From a virus, in IMG/VR virus record IMGVR_UViG_3300046737_000006, positions 1 through 50,570 of that record: a stretch of 50,570 nt of DNA. One strand, written 5' to 3'. The notes beneath the pieces are model-generated. The model was not told the origin of the DNA, ran no database searches, and was given only the letters and a program-made list of their open reading frames with translations. Shown here one piece after another: positions 7,200 to 22,237 of the stretch (its first letter is position 1; every line of letters begins with the position of its first letter). Position numbers and translations under genes: made by a program.

Positions 7200-7919
7200 T
7201 TAGTGGAAGGTCGCCTTCTCGAAGGCACGGACCGAAGCCAGAGCCTCCTTAGGCTCAAGGATCGCCACGTCATCCAGCACGTTGGTGCGGGCGGCCATCA
7301 TCTCGGCCTCAGCCGCATCGTAGCCAGCCTTGTCCGCAGGCACAGCCGGGTCACGCCACACGATGTAGCGCATCAGGTCCGGAGCGTAGCTGAACTTACG
7401 GTCCGACTTGATGTCCTTGGAGAACTGGACTTTGCCCGACGCGAAGCGGGCAACCAGCTCGTCGAAGCTCTCAGGAGCCTCGTCGTTGTTCAGATGAAAG
7501 GCTGCCCGGAGATCGCTCTCGTGCTGGTTGGCAATCTGGTAGACGCGGCTGCTCAGGTGGCCACGCTGGTCATTCAGGTCGTTCATTTCATTGTCCTCTT
7601 CGTCATCGTCAGAGTCGTCGCAACATTCGTCGCAATCGCACTCTGGGTAGGGGTCGTTAGGCCACGGATTATTATACTTGACCAAGTCAAGCGCCGTGGT
7701 ACTGGAAGTCTGCAGGTACAACATAGGTTTCTCTTCCTTCTTCAGTATGTACCTAAGGAATATCTTCGTCAAGTCTAGGTCGCTAATATACTGATAGACT
7801 TTATCTTTGCTTAGATTGTCCCAAAGAGATTTGCAATCGCTATACCTAAGATATAGATCGTTGCGTTTGTCTCTAAACGGGAGCTTAGGCATACGCCTAA
7901 TGGTAGACTGTTTTTCCAT
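7200..7919 (-). CDS. Hypothetical protein with acidic Cys-rich linker (239 aa)
   Basis: Open frame continues upstream to 8222, but that part overlaps the nuclease gene; the ATG at 7919 overlaps the nuclease end by 23 bases and is the likeliest first start. Internal ATGs at 7724 (preceded by AGGAAGAG) and 7586 (preceded by GAGGACAATGAA) are good alternatives. Residues about 90-112 form a Cys/Asp/Glu cluster (ECDCDECCDDSDDDEED). The C-terminal 128 residues are encoded in clearly GC-richer DNA than the first half, suggesting fusion of two segments or a separate highly expressed gene starting at 7586. No function recognised. Confidence 0.6.
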   Translation of the reverse strand: MEKQSTIRRMPKLPFRDKRNDLYLRYSDCKSLWDNLSKDKVYQYISDLDLTKIFLRYILKKEEKPMLYLQTSSTTALDLVKYNNPWPNDPYPECDCDECCDDSDDDEEDNEMNDLNDQRGHLSSRVYQIANQHESDLRAAFHLNNDEAPESFDELVARFASGKVQFSKDIKSDRKFSYAPDLMRYIVWRDPAVPADKAGYDAAEAEMMAARTNVLDDVAILEPKEALASVRAFEKATFH

Positions 7920-8796
7920 GTCTATTGAATTCTGGGATTGGTCCATATTTATTGGTTGGTCGTTTAACACATTTAGATAGATATACAGGTCCTTCCGAGT
8001 ACTTGAAAGCACGTAGGTGGGGAAAGCACTCCCATTTGTACGCGGAATAACTTGCCGTCCAATGTAGCTTATAATTGCCTGCATTTCCGAGAGGCTCAGT
8101 CCTACATTCACAGCTAGGTGGATGTTCCATGGACTGTATGGTTTTATAGTAACGAATACGTTCTGAGAGATTGTCACGCCTAGCACTTGTGACCTGATGC
8201 TCGTATAGATGTATATGTCCATGTTGTTTATCTATGGGTAGGAGAAATCCTTTGTCTTTCACACGAACCAGAGGATCGTCAGCGGCAGCCAACACATACC
8301 CGTCAAGTTGCTCCAGATAGCCGAAGCTATCCACCACGCTGTAGTCCCTCGTTTTAAACTTTTGAAACGAAAGGCTAGTAGCAGATTTAACGTCAACTGT
8401 GCAGCCGTCGATAACACAATCACGGTGTCCAACGATCCCGTCGTATCGGAGTTCATCTTGCTCTCCAGTTACTTCGTGTCCAGCGGCTTTCGCAAGTGGG
8501 ATGATGAGAGCTTCGATAATGCTACCATACGCGAACTTAATCTTCGTCCACGGCGGTAGAGCTTCTGCCAATTCCGGGTGGTGGAGGCTGTACCAAAGAG
8601 CCCTTGGACATCTCGAACCCAGTCCTGACAGCCGTAGCGTAGCCTTCTTTCCTTCCCTACGCTCCCCAAGTTGTCCTTGGAGACGCCTGCTAATACTAGA
8701 GGAAAGGTCTCCAGCAAGCTCGTCCGTGAACCATCCATCTTGCGTCTCCTTCAAGAGTTGGTAGATGTCAGGTATTAGTGTGTGTATTGAACTCAA
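7897..8796 (-). CDS. PD-(D/E)XK (RecB/Cas4-like) exonuclease
   Basis: 299 aa. Nuclease core: a glutamate at 95 (GSIIEAL), GHRD at 123-126 and DVK at 135-137 (motif III, lysine present). A cysteine in SRCPRALWY (C63) plus C-terminal cysteines (CEC, WECF) resemble the cysteine layout of Cas4/AddB-type proteins that bind an iron-sulphur cluster; this is inference. It takes the place of a T7 gp6-type 5' exonuclease in the replication/recombination block. Start is TTG at 8796, overlapping the upstream stop (TTGA), which suggests coupling. Confidence 0.85.
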   Translation of the reverse strand: MSSIHTLIPDIYQLLKETQDGWFTDELAGDLSSSISRRLQGQLGERREGKKATLRLSGLGSRCPRALWYSLHHPELAEALPPWTKIKFAYGSIIEALIIPLAKAAGHEVTGEQDELRYDGIVGHRDCVIDGCTVDVKSATSLSFQKFKTRDYSVVDSFGYLEQLDGYVLAAADDPLVRVKDKGFLLPIDKQHGHIHLYEHQVTSARRDNLSERIRYYKTIQSMEHPPSCECRTEPLGNAGNYKLHWTASYSAYKWECFPHLRAFKYSEGPVYLSKCVKRPTNKYGPIPEFNRHGKTVYH

Positions 8797-9062
8797 TTCA
8801 GTTTGATCTTCTGTGCCATCTCCACGAACTTCAACATGAAGTACATGAACGTTGTGTTGAATATGATTGCGATTAGTGGGAAGGCGACACAGAGCTTCAA
8901 GAACGTAGTCCAGTAGTCTGCCTTAGCCTTAGCTTCTGCTTCCTTCTTCTTCATCCCTGCTTCAGCATCTTGCTTGATCAGGTCGACGAAGGCTTTCATC
9001 CGTTGGTATTCTGCCAGTGGGTCGAGGTTATTATTGTTATTGCTTGGACCCATGAAGAACAT
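8793..9062 (-). CDS. Small membrane protein (89 aa)
   Basis: Starts after a strong AGGAGG. Has a short poly-Asn stretch, a charged helical middle (KKKEAEAKAKADY) and one membrane segment near the C-terminus (about residues 56-78). First gene after the long non-coding region; its leader ends with two small hairpins (GCACC-TTC-GGTGC and GCATC-GGA-GATGC). Function unknown. Confidence 0.75.
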   Translation of the reverse strand: MFFMGPSNNNNNLDPLAEYQRMKAFVDLIKQDAEAGMKKKEAEAKAKADYWTTFLKLCVAFPLIAIIFNTTFMYFMLKFVEMAQKIKLN

Positions 9063-9079: not shown

Positions 9080-10720
9080 TAGCATCTCCGATGCGCGCAC
9101 CGAAGGTGCTAGAAGAAGTAGTGGGGACTGTTGAGGGCCAGCCCCCGCGCCCCTATTGTTATTAAGGCGGCTGTGGGTATTGGGGTGGATATACTAGTGG
9201 GAACATAGCCGAGCCTCCTATCTGAGTATACCACATTCCACCTACCGCTAAAAGTCCTATTCGCTTCCCTACTCGTGGCTGAGGCACGTAACGCCCCGCT
9301 TCCATAGGTACAGCTACTGACTAGTTCGGGCTCGCCTGGAGGTTCTCCACGTCCAAGGCCCTATAGCTTCTTGGCGGTATCAGTAGGTCATCGTTTGCCA
9401 CAGAAGGCGCTACTTGCTCTTAGTGACTCAACCTACGGTCATCACAGCTCCAGAGCAGCGCTTACGCTGACATCAGTACCCTAGACATTCACCAGCGTGA
9501 AGTCCATCGGGTTTAACTGCTTAACAGGCTTAGCACAAACACACAGAGCGCTCGACGGCCCTTCTCTGTAGTCTGTTGTGTCTACCACAGGCGATTGTCA
9601 TGCTATCTGTCAGGCACCTGCCTTATTGCACCACTACCTTTCGGTAGGCCGGACTCGAACCGGCAGCTCCTGCCTACTCCTCGGTTCACCATACGGCTCC
9701 TTGCCGACGACGGATTCGCACCGTCTCTCTGGGATGGCCCGATCCTGTATATTGCGCATAGGCTTAGCTTTCGCGTCTTTGAATTACGCGCTCCCAACCG
9801 GTGACCTCGGAACTTCTTTTATCCGTGTAGCTCCATATGCAGATTACGGGAGTGTCAGCGATCGCTAGATCGCGATCAATCCCGGAGCACACAACGATAG
9901 AGAGGGATACCCCATCTATGTCTCGGCCTATAGGACTCCTACTACACTGCGTAGGTCCCAATGCACGGACATACCTGGCCTCGAACCAAGAGGCTCTCAA
10001 GTTCTCTGTCTCTTTGTACGGGTCGGACTCTTAGGTAAGTCGAATATACTCCGTAGAGCATTAGCCTGGCAGTCACCCTGCTGGCCGACGTTACCCTGTG
10101 TTGTGTGGAGGCTATCCCACTTTCAGCCGTTGGTTCGCTACCTGTGCACATTTGCTCATCGCTCATCGTTCGGCTATGAGAATGGTATATGACTCTGGAC
10201 TCACCGCCAGTCCTGCTTGACTTGGCTCGCACCTAAGCTTTCGCAGTCACCCCATGCCTAAGCTTCGCGTCCATATGAGCTAGCCTTTTCCCCTACACTG
10301 GTAGGCACGGTAGGCTAGTATCCGTAGTGCTCACGAACCCTGTAGATCGCTCAGTCTTTTAGGCTGCATCACTGAGCTAACGCCTAGTATTCCCGCTCCA
10401 CACGCGGGTATTTGCTTTCACCTTTCCTCAAGAGACTATCGTCCAGAAACCTCTGAGCGAATCACTCAGCCCCTGGAGCGTCGATGGCACCCATCTAGTG
10501 CTAGCTCAAGACTACTCAGTTACTGACAAGGAGGTTGCGCCACCTTTGGACAGTGTCCTCCGTTGAGGACCTAGCGCATCCTGACGCACATTAATCGTTT
10601 TCCTCAGCTATCCTAATCCCCTGGGACTTCGAGTCCCCGCTCCCCTGGTAGACAGCCAGGTGCTAGGATTGTGGACCGTACACTTAGGAGTGTTGCGACT
10701 AATGTACTTAATGAACAAAT
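9080..10720 (-). ncRNA. Candidate giant structured non-coding RNA (about 1.6 kb)
   Basis: No credible ORF on either strand. Read on the - strand, stems include: CTACC-GAAA-GGTAG (9634-9647), CAGCG-TAAG-CGCTG (9456-9469), GTCCTC-AACG-GAGGAC (10555-10570), GCTCAGT/ACTGAGC (10349-10377), CCCGC/GCGGG (10392-10408), a bulged 9-bp hairpin (10678-10707) and a three-way junction closed by ATCCTAG/TTAGGAT (10610-10669). GCGAAAGC appears twice. T-loop-like hairpins occur several times, for example GCCGG-TTCGAGT-CCGGC (9648-9664). I could not pair any of these with a tRNA acceptor stem. Size and phage context recall families such as GOLLD or ROOL, but I cannot assign it; a decayed tRNA array is the alternative. 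Ends are approximate. Confidence 0.6.
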
Positions 10721-10723
10721 AGA

Positions 10724-10778
10724 AACCCCGGCGCTACAGTTAGAAAGGAGGCGGAAAGAACTGTATTCACCGGGGTTG
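10724..10778 (-). terminator. Two-tier hairpin terminator before the ncRNA region
   Basis: AACCCCGG pairs with CCGGGGTT, with an inner ACAGTT/AACTGT stem; the - strand tail is TCTATTTGTT. It ends the operon carrying the polymerase and SSB-like genes, so the downstream RNA would need read-through or its own promoter. Confidence 0.65.
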
Positions 10779-10783
10779 TTTCG

Positions 10784-10915
10784 TTAGTAGATCAGGGGAG
10801 CAATCAGCTTAGCTGTCTCCTTACAGATGTCGATTAGACCTACACCTGCTAGGATCAAGATAACCCATGATTGCCAACCTTCGAACTTGAATTCGTACTT
10901 ATAGTTCCTGTTCAT
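10784..10915 (-). CDS. Small membrane protein (43 aa)
   Basis: Begins MNRNYKYEFKFEGWQSW and then has a single hydrophobic span (VILILAGVGLIDIC). The leader is structured and ends in an A-rich stretch (AATAAGAAAAAGAAC) before the ATG, so initiation may not depend on a classical Shine-Dalgarno. Last gene of its operon, directly before a terminator. No function recognised. Confidence 0.55.
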   Translation of the reverse strand: MNRNYKYEFKFEGWQSWVILILAGVGLIDICKETAKLIAPLIY

Positions 10916-10935: not shown

Positions 10936-11033
10936 GGCTCCGACTGGGGGTCGGTTATTCCCCGGCCGTGACCCCTCCGCGCCTTGCGGTGCGTGATTAG
11001 AGCCGGGACAGATGTGGCCTGCACATCGGAGCC
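10936..11033 (-). promoter_or_regulatory. Structured leader between SSB-like gene and small membrane gene
   Basis: An 8-bp outer stem (GGCTCCGA / TCGGAGCC) encloses GC-rich inner hairpins. It lies in the 137-base gap 10916-11052. It may be a processing or translation-control element; no known riboswitch is recognised. Confidence 0.4.
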
Positions 11034-11052
11034 GTGGCCACCCACGCCTGTG

Positions 11053-11583
11053 TTAGAACAGTTGCTTGCCCTGGGTTTCGAAGCCCATGACTGCATTCTG
11101 ACCACCTTCATCGAAGGATGGCTTGTTGAAAGGGATTAGATGGTCAATGCGAACAGAGAACCACCTCATAGCCCACTCCTTCTTACCATCCCTAGATGCG
11201 GGGGGAGTATAAGGATAAACCTCAACCTTGGCGACTACATCAGAGCCATTACCGATAGGCTCATTCAGAGGAGCGTAGGCGACAACGTTGCCTTGTTCAT
11301 CCTTGATGGGCATGTTACCGTTGAATACTTCAGGCGGCTTCATACCCACAATCTTACCAGTACGCAATTTCAACTCTGATGGACGGTTCAAACGAACCCA
11401 CCAACCATCATCGTCCTTCTCAATTCGGTTCTTAATACCCTTGTCTTTTTGTAGCTGCTGCAATAGAGCCATTGACTCGGCGTCTGGATATAGCTTCATC
11501 GAATACTTGCCCCACTGATTAATCTTGTGTGGGGATACCCAAGAACCCTTACCCTTTAAGAAATACCATTCTGTACCGGGCAT
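11053..11583 (-). CDS. Probable single-stranded DNA-binding protein (176 aa)
   Basis: Position close to the polymerase and the pattern of the second half (IGNGSDVVAKVEVYPYTPP followed by MRWFSVRIDHLIPF) resemble phage OB-fold ssDNA-binding proteins of the T7 gp2.5/short-SSB type. The N-terminal half has aromatic and basic residues on presumed strands (WYFLKGKGSWVSPHK, GWWVRLNRPSELK). It lacks the usual strongly acidic C-terminal tail, ending GFETQGKQLF. An AGGATAAT sequence precedes the ATG. The assignment rests on pattern memory and context. Confidence 0.65.
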   Translation of the reverse strand: MPGTEWYFLKGKGSWVSPHKINQWGKYSMKLYPDAESMALLQQLQKDKGIKNRIEKDDDGWWVRLNRPSELKLRTGKIVGMKPPEVFNGNMPIKDEQGNVVAYAPLNEPIGNGSDVVAKVEVYPYTPPASRDGKKEWAMRWFSVRIDHLIPFNKPSFDEGGQNAVMGFETQGKQLF

Positions 11584-16568: not shown

Positions 16569-16686
16569 CTTTTTTACCTCCGTCAACATAGTACGAAACA
16601 ATATGTCCAGGTAAATTCTCAATCAAATTATTCAAATCAATAAGTGTCTCAGCGGTAAGTTCCACGACTACTGTAGCTTTCTTCAT
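16462..16686 (-). CDS. Small hypothetical protein (74 aa)
   Basis: ATG preceded by GGAGGCTACC, a good ribosome site, and overlapping the end of the uracil-DNA glycosylase gene. First 35 residues look folded (MKKATVVVELTAETLIDLNN); the remainder is Ser/Asp/Pro-rich and overlaps the next gene by 107 bases. No function recognised. Confidence 0.6.
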   Translation of the reverse strand: MKKATVVVELTAETLIDLNNLIENLPGHIVSYYVDGGKKDAEHPSDASKATDAKEPDLPSGTVRSSWTGGPGPI

Positions 16687-17351
16687 GGTAGCCTCCAGTC
16701 TATGGGTTGATCTAGGTACCAGTTTATTCTTGAGAATATACGACTTCCCAAGAACCCTTTCTTCGCTCCCAGCGGACTTGGGTGAGAAGTCCAGAGTTGT
16801 CGTTCGTAGCCTGGTATGGCAAAAGTCTGAGCCACCCGGCCAAGATATGCCAGGACAGCGTTGTTATCGGCCGCTTTTCGAAGAACTTCTTGTGTGAGTA
16901 ACTCCCACTCACACCAATGATGACTGCCGGGACGGCCTGTGGCGCATGTAGGATAAGCGTTCCAGAGCAGTACTCCTTGTTGGGTCCACGGAGTGAGGTC
17001 ACCGCTCGTCGGAAAGGGTAGCTGTAGATCATCGTGATATTCCTTAAAGATGTTGACTAAGGAAGGCGGGTAATCGTCAGACCCAATGTGATTAGGTACG
17101 CTAAAAGCAGTCCCAGTGCAGTACTTAGGGTTAGGATAAGGGTCTTGGCCCACAATGCAAACCCGTACTCTTTCAGGTGGCAGCTCGTTGAGCACACGGA
17201 ACATATCAATAGGAGCAGGACAATAAGCCTGAGCCCCTGATAATCGCCTATGATCAAGGTCATTGAGTCTCTCCCTTATGACCTGCCATTCACCGGACTT
17301 CCAGAACTTCAATTTCCAGTGTTGGTTATATCCCTTCGTATGAAACTTCAT
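16683..17351 (-). CDS. ung: Uracil-DNA glycosylase (family 1)
   Basis: 222 aa, the usual size. Water-activating motif GQDPYP at 68-73 (Asp present; Pro in place of His as in several bacterial family members), followed by TGTAFSVP, LLWNAYPT and the DNA-intercalation motif HPSPLGAKKGF near the C-terminus. It removes uracil from DNA during replication, so this phage presumably uses ordinary thymine DNA. The gene sits in the replication operon between primase-helicase and polymerase. No good Shine-Dalgarno; its start lies within the end of the upstream 64-aa gene, implying coupling. Confidence 0.93.
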   Translation of the reverse strand: MKFHTKGYNQHWKLKFWKSGEWQVIRERLNDLDHRRLSGAQAYCPAPIDMFRVLNELPPERVRVCIVGQDPYPNPKYCTGTAFSVPNHIGSDDYPPSLVNIFKEYHDDLQLPFPTSGDLTPWTQQGVLLWNAYPTCATGRPGSHHWCEWELLTQEVLRKAADNNAVLAYLGRVAQTFAIPGYERQLWTSHPSPLGAKKGFLGSRIFSRINWYLDQPIDWRLP

Positions 17352-22039: not shown

Positions 22040-22081
22040 TTGACTACCCTCTCGCTTGCGTTATACTCAAAGTAATAATAG

Positions 22082-22156
22082 TGGAGCCGGAAGGAATTGA
22101 ACCTTCGGACCGAGGACAGCGGGCAGCACCCGATCCCCAGAAACACTGGCAGCCCC
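22082..22156 (-). tRNA. tRNA-like gene with abnormal anticodon arm
   Basis: A 7-bp acceptor pairs GGGGCTG with CGGCTCC (two G-U), and a perfect T-arm GAAGG-TTCAATT-CCTTC follows. The rest is not standard: the D-arm would be CCAG-TGTTT-CTGG without the GG pair in the loop, and the anticodon arm is a long hairpin (GGGGA/TCCTC outside, CGGG/CCCG inside) with a 5-base loop. No anticodon can be read with confidence. CCA is not encoded. It starts 5 bases after the tRNA-Leu gene, so both are co-transcribed. It may be a decayed tRNA or a tRNA-like RNA with another job. Confidence 0.5.
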
Positions 22157-22161
22157 TTAAG

Positions 22162-22237
22162 TGGTGCCCACGGTTGGACTCGAACCAACACTAGAGGGAT
22201 TTTAAGTCCCTTGCCTCTGCCATTGGGCTACGTAGGC
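22162..22237 (-). tRNA. tRNA-Leu (anticodon UAA)
   Basis: 76 bases with encoded CCA. Acceptor GCCTACG/CGTGGGC, U8-A9, D-arm with GG in the loop, anticodon stem AGGGA/TCCCT around CTTAAAA (U33, anticodon UAA, A37), T-arm GTTGG-TTCGAGT-CCAAC, discriminator A73 as leucine tRNAs have. The variable loop is only 5 bases (CTAGT), whereas bacterial leucine tRNAs normally have a long variable arm. So either it is a short-form Leu tRNA or its true charging identity differs. Confidence 0.88.

Follow-up and report, generated by a model that had tools for sequence, protein, structure and literature searches.

What occupies the space between two replication genes of a virus where some 1.6 kb of DNA appear to encode no protein? 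The question is raised by positions 9080-10720 of the 50,570-nt stretch analysed here (IMG/VR record IMGVR_UViG_3300046737_000006; hereafter the window), for which a preliminary description had suggested that the minus strand may encode a giant structured phage RNA, a member of GOLLD or ROOL or else a new class, with a decayed tRNA cluster as the main rival idea. To our knowledge, very few noncoding RNAs of such a size exist outside the ribosome. The span is indeed gene-free as described, since it holds only short ORFs (the longest at most 96 aa), none of those tested matches Pfam or PHROGs, and neither ARAGORN nor Rfam finds a tRNA within it. Its minus strand reads in the same direction as both flanking replication genes, and along this strand the locus comprises the following features:

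11053-11583, minus strand: probable gp2.5-like ssDNA-binding protein (SSB) gene, the upstream syntenic anchor; predicted fold with pLDDT 91.5, best PDB match T7 gp2.5 (1je5, E 7e-6)
10724-10777, minus strand: terminator-like hairpin in the sequence, AACCCCGG..CCGGGGTT-TCTATTT, separating a small ORF (10784-10915) from the RNA
9220-10720 (ends approximate), minus strand: predicted giant structured noncoding RNA; the stretch has no genes, shares its syntenic position with the gene-free gaps of about 70 relatives and carries signature hairpins on this strand only
9162-9206, minus strand: leader ORF of the Pro-Pro-stop type, MFPLVYPPQYPQPP-stop, with an AGGAGG ribosome site
9123-9146, minus strand: G+C-rich hairpin between the leader ORF and the membrane-protein ORF; a hairpin at the same place covaries in the relatives of group A (see below)
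8793-9062, minus strand: ORF of a small membrane protein (89 aa) that follows the RNA; its ribosome site is strong
7897-8796, minus strand: Cas4-like exonuclease gene, the downstream syntenic anchor (PHROG 1990, E 1.6e-25)

The identity of the SSB as T7 gp2.5-like is taken from its confident predicted fold together with the best PDB match. As to the extent of the RNA, the proposed span holds as far as about 9220, so that the RNA proper runs from about 10720 to 9220, while the 3' portion at 9206-9162 is instead the small conserved ORF ending in Pro-Pro-stop. At the other end, the segment 10700-10899, which contains the terminator-like hairpin, has a folding-energy z of -4.46. The ORF at 10784-10915 (minus strand), between the RNA and the SSB gene, encodes 43 aa with a probable membrane helix, and locus L029 shows a comparable peptide (MKLEGWKAGVVLTA...) following its SSB gene. 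Directly after the SSB stop codon lies a compact element (10945-11046, minus strand) closed by GGCTCCGA/TCGGAGCC, possibly a separate structured RNA, whose folding energy taken alone is not above chance. Elsewhere in the window, the ORF at 16683-17351 (minus strand) carries a GQDPYP motif, which we take to be that of a uracil-DNA glycosylase, presumably unusual in such a phage, and the segment 29001-30000, where GC content is low (0.39) and GC skew more negative than anywhere else in the window, marks the point at which replication genes on the minus strand give way to structural genes on the plus strand and is a possible divergent promoter or origin region.

A search of IMG/VR with the exonuclease and DNA polymerase proteins yielded more than 100 loci with the common gene order polymerase - SSB - gap - exonuclease - endonuclease I, which after removal of duplicates gave 72 intergenic regions in addition to that of the window, some near-duplicates still being present. 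About 70 related soil phages have a gene-free gap, mostly of 1.5-2.7 kb, where the SSB gene is separated from that of the Cas4-like exonuclease; the only conserved protein found inside it in the relatives is the short peptide of the Pro-Pro-stop type at the 3' margin. Because the gap is lacking both in marine relatives (L042-L049; exonuclease identity about 37%) and in the isolates phiM6 and T5S1, in which related exonucleases occur among packed genes and the RNA is absent, the feature is confined to one soil clade, and on this comparative evidence the RNA family belongs to a clade of roughly 50-kb soil phages. A search of bacterial genomes with the exonuclease found no relative and hence gives no clue to the host. 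The DNA of the gap is highly diverse, most regions being singletons at the BLAST threshold used, and the window's region shows no DNA similarity to known phages, none to the relatives' regions (blastn) and no match to a profile HMM of group A (nhmmer). A motif, CCGGTGACAGACGNGATCAGTC, is strongly conserved in the intergenic regions of several relatives (L004, L006, L023, L034, L058, L075, L101, L106, L120 and L121), and those IMG/VR contigs matching it that were checked (loci L209-L217) all carry the clade's replication genes. The pattern GATAAAAGCGAGAYCC also matched eight contigs that had no other family features, and these matches were taken as chance.

Evidence for a folded RNA comes from the alignable relatives rather than from the window's own RNA. 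Group A consists of nine alignable regions of 59-88% identity, for which 60 alignments simulated on their own maximum-likelihood tree served as control. Helices with a covariation score of at least 30 number 22 in the real alignment against a mean of 0.35 and a maximum of 3 in the simulated ones, and those with a score of at least 40 number 12 against none; 21 of the 24 best helices also appear in an independently computed consensus fold and are spread along the whole RNA. Realignment of one domain (about 320 nt), which long-range helices close, gives two-sided changes at 28 of its 44 pairs, a figure that none of 500 shuffles reached; sliding the partners destroys the signal, and the covariation tolerates G-U pairs. 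A second sub-family has 16 helices with at least four covarying pairs (simulated maximum 9), two groups of three sequences point in the same direction, and in two small sub-families, groups C and E, covariation is indistinguishable from simulation. A covariance model of 321 positions built from the group A domain (R1) also detects this domain in about a dozen other sub-families (E-values 1e-31 to 1e-3), and every such match is in this gap and on the strand of the RNA. In an alignment of 19 sequences two-sided changes occur at 34 of the 44 pairs, a count that leans towards the model to which the alignment was fitted. For the alignable relatives these comparisons show a predicted RNA that folds along its whole length into many helices kept by compensatory changes. 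The window's RNA, for its part, aligns to no other member by blastn or nhmmer, and R1 with filters off gives a weak match reaching its T-arms only.

The many stable hairpins of the preliminary description have to be divided into their existence, which stands, and their stability, which does not exceed chance. The quoted hairpins were all located (CTACC-GAAA-GGTAG at 9647-9634, GTCCTC-AACG-GAGGAC near 10565, CAGCG-TAAG-CGCTG near 9465, and GCGAAAGC twice), and so were the T-loop-like hairpins that it had noticed, at 9725-9709 and 9664-9648. The folding energy of the region is no better than that of dinucleotide shuffles (mean z -0.34; flanking coding DNA -0.86). Since four relatives from a sub-family with strong covariation also have a z near 0, folding energy is uninformative for this family. 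What rises above chance is the identity of the loops: five signature hairpins were counted on the minus strand against 0.086 expected from 3000 shuffles, a count slightly favoured by the fact that the loop list was compiled with the window among the 73 regions, and the plus strand of the region has none. The hairpins of the window's RNA include:

10644-10660, minus strand: CCTGG-CUGUCUA-CCAGG, whose loop is common to eight other relatives on different stems
10541-10555, minus strand: hairpin with the recurring loop GUCCAAA
10453-10469, minus strand: hairpin with the recurring loop UGAUUCG
9709-9725, minus strand: T-loop hairpin of the UGC type, GACGG-UGCGAAU-CCGUC
9648-9664, minus strand: T-arm hairpin GCCGG-UUCGAGU-CCGGC, with a weak covariance-model match restricted to the T-arm
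9634-9647, minus strand: GAAA-tetraloop hairpin (sequence above), between the T-arm and the D-arm-like hairpin
9613-9632, minus strand: D-arm-like hairpin GGUGC-AAUAAGGCAG-GUGCC, downstream of the T-arm, read as part of a permuted tRNA elbow

The last three, in the order T-arm, GAAA hairpin and D-like hairpin, form an elbow module whose D-like TGGTGCAATAAGGCAG resembles TGGCGCAATTGGTAG of L090 and TGGCGCAATATGGCAG of L085. The same loops recur across sub-families that cannot be aligned with one another, on changing stems and on one strand only, and neither the reverse strand nor shuffles contain them; these loops comprise UUCGAGU and other T-loops, CUCAUUA, CUCUGAA/CCCUGAA (CYCUGAA, always on 6-bp stems), CUGUCUA, GUCCAAA (GUCCAWA), CAGAUUA and GUGAAA/GUGCAA (GUGMAA, on stems of 6-7 bp). 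T-loop hairpins are 35 times denser in the regions than elsewhere in the same loci, and T-arms that combine canonical GGUUCGANUCC with a 5-bp stem number in the tens. A strict search for D-arm-like hairpins of the class II tRNA type returned 12 on the RNA strand against none on the opposite strand and 2.4 in shuffles, while a looser one placed a D-arm-like hairpin within 60 nt downstream of 11 of the 85 T-arms (1.8 expected, P 2e-6) and found no such association upstream; two of these 11 matches lie in the window, namely the GAAA hairpin itself and the D-like hairpin. The order of T followed by D, the reverse of that in tRNA, is read as a permuted elbow that would serve as a tertiary joint. 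Kissing between the recurring 7-nt loops was also considered, and complementary k-mers are not enriched. Loop and hairpin comparisons across the regions show that the families reuse a kit of fixed loops and elbow modules, with stems changing and order differing. The window carries the arrangement by which the family is recognised, a gene-free interval between SSB and exonuclease genes with a Pro-Pro-stop leader and a membrane-protein ORF, and its membership is founded on synteny, loop and elbow modules and this leader, not on alignment.

Downstream of the RNA the arrangement is equally constant. A very short ORF with a ribosome site and ending in Pro-Pro-stop is found in 67 of 68 intergenic regions, and it is usually followed by a hairpin, which in group A has 9 bp and covaries, and then in nearly all relatives by a one-helix membrane protein. 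In the window this last gene is the ORF 8793-9062, which with its strong ribosome site follows the RNA just as had been noticed earlier and has no family match in Pfam or PHROGs. The leader peptide likely controls expression of the membrane protein, because Pro-Pro-stop is known to stall termination and ranks among the strongest ends in this respect (Hayes et al. 2002, through the citation in PMC7246954). We do not read CCUCCUUAA as an anti-Shine-Dalgarno sequence, since its letters are the Pro-Pro-stop codons.

The same arrangement gives rise to the main rival explanation, which would make the whole RNA a giant cis-acting leader, that is the 5' UTR of a membrane-protein/exonuclease/endonuclease operon acting by attenuation or anti-Rho protection in concert with the Pro-Pro-stop peptide. 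The invariable position of the RNA directly upstream of the same genes speaks for it, as do the near-universal leader ORF with its stalling end and ribosome site and the covarying hairpin next to it in group A. However, the leader ORF and hairpin alone would be enough for attenuation, the elbows lie distant from the controlled gene, and no attenuator that we know of comes near an RNA that exceeds 1.2 kb, has dozens of helices and varies in module order; we hold this reading to be unlikely. Still less probable is a mimic or sponge of tRNA parts, whose T-arms, D-arm-like arms and anticodon-like 7-nt loops would divert tRNA-cleaving defence nucleases or tRNA enzymes. The abundance of canonical T-arms on 5-bp stems, the presence of D-arm-like modules and the C and A at the loop ends of CUCAUUA and CUGUCUA, as in anticodon loops, would suit such a role, whereas U33 or a purine at 37 is missing from many loops, stem lengths often differ from 5 bp (as for CYCUGAA and GUGMAA), T precedes D, an acceptor stem with CCA is not seen, and the T-arms are embedded in larger covarying domains.

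That the locus is a DNA-level element, such as a replication origin within the replication gene cluster, is suggested by its position between SSB and exonuclease genes and is nonetheless very improbable, given that the signature loops are strictly strand-specific and the covariation accepts G-U pairs, as expected for RNA. Least credible of all is the functionless decayed tRNA cluster, to which we assign next to no probability. Isolated T-arms and D-arm-like hairpins, and one tRNA-Leu elsewhere in the genome, might recall such a cluster, but it is contradicted by the strong compensatory change, by the module order and by the lack of any intact or near-intact tRNA here or in the loci of 40 relatives, where no tRNA series was found either; place and order are moreover conserved within families. 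The T-arm stands 5' of the D-arm-like hairpin, and two acceptor strands cannot fit between them because the gap is only 6-11 nt in some relatives. Neither ARAGORN nor Rfam detected a tRNA or tmRNA cloverleaf with acceptor stem and anticodon arm in the region or its relatives, and the single tRNA detected in the window, a tRNA-Leu (22162-22237), lies 11.5 kb from the RNA with no tRNA island nearby. Directly after that gene, a tRNA-like sequence at 22072-22146 (minus strand), GGGGCTGCC..GAAGGTTCAATTCCTTCCGGCTCCAC, was missed by ARAGORN and is possibly an odd or decayed tRNA.

Synteny, covariation in relatives and strand-limited loops thus point to a real minus-strand gene for a giant structured RNA, from about 10720 to 9220. 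The explanation that we consider best, with a probability of about 60%, is a trans-acting structured RNA of about 1.5 kb that would form a GOLLD/ROOL-like particle and may have the membrane protein as its partner. Its transcription would follow the direction of the phage replication genes, its recurring loops would act as tertiary joints folding it into a large compact particle, possibly homo-oligomeric, and this particle would act during phage DNA replication in the manner of GOLLD and ROOL; the adjoining membrane protein, whose expression would depend on ribosomes stalling at the Pro-Pro-stop leader, may tether or partner the particle in analogy with OLE RNA and OapA. A trans-acting compact particle is proposed because of the size of the RNA, its modular tertiary joints, the GOLLD/ROOL precedent and the membrane-protein partnership of OLE. 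The broader notion of a superfamily of rRNA-sized phage RNAs, which would draw on permuted tRNA elbows and on tertiary loops from a common kit, shuffled anew from phage to phage, to build a replication-associated particle tethered by its own membrane protein, is put forward tentatively and seems to us doubtful. The RNA family would in any case offer a natural experiment in building large RNAs from reusable parts such as T-loops and tRNA elbows, and a repeated origin of giant RNAs in phages, if there is one, would probably reflect a shared need.

How does this RNA compare with those already described? None of 4227 Rfam models (including GOLLD, ROOL, OLE, tRNA and introns) matched the RNA region of the window or 12 relatives at gathering thresholds; at E-values up to 10 the window's region left GOLLD, ROOL, OLE and group I and II introns unmatched and returned two chance-level hits only, six relatives gave no match at E-values up to 1, and YrlA reached a weak sub-threshold match of 16.1 bits in the window's region. 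A literature search of incomplete coverage found no description of such an RNA. GOLLD, ROOL and OLE form RNA-only oligomers (PMC12286853), those of the phage RNAs GOLLD and ROOL being cages. Like GOLLD, the new RNA is a very large ornate noncoding RNA encoded by phages, with two-sided covariation and domains that evolve independently (PMC12286853), but it measures about 1.5 kb rather than 0.8 kb, has no Rfam match, reuses T-loop and D-arm-like modules and does not lie beside tRNA genes, whereas GOLLD is found near phage tRNAs or has a tRNA in its linker. ROOL is likewise a giant RNA of phages or prophages, with an RNA-only cage of the sort that the new RNA may form, yet the new RNA is longer, stands in another gene neighbourhood and is without an Rfam match to it. 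With OLE and OapA it shares the combination of a large structured RNA and a membrane protein, which is a dedicated partner in OLE and here a neighbour only; OLE is bacterial and the new RNA, again with no Rfam match, belongs to phages. The UUCGANY T-arm loop and the class-II-tRNA-like D-arm loop with GG recall the tRNA elbow and the Y RNA YrlA, although here T precedes D, within a 1.5-kb RNA and without tRNA acceptor or anticodon architecture. Of the two possibilities raised earlier, membership in GOLLD or ROOL and a new class, it is the second that stands: in kind the RNA is like the giant ornate phage RNAs, while its sequence, structure, size and gene context set it apart from GOLLD and ROOL as a class of its own. 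As a third class of giant phage RNA, larger than and unrelated to these two, its roughly 70 members collected by synteny, together with the covarying helices, are direct targets for structural biologists.
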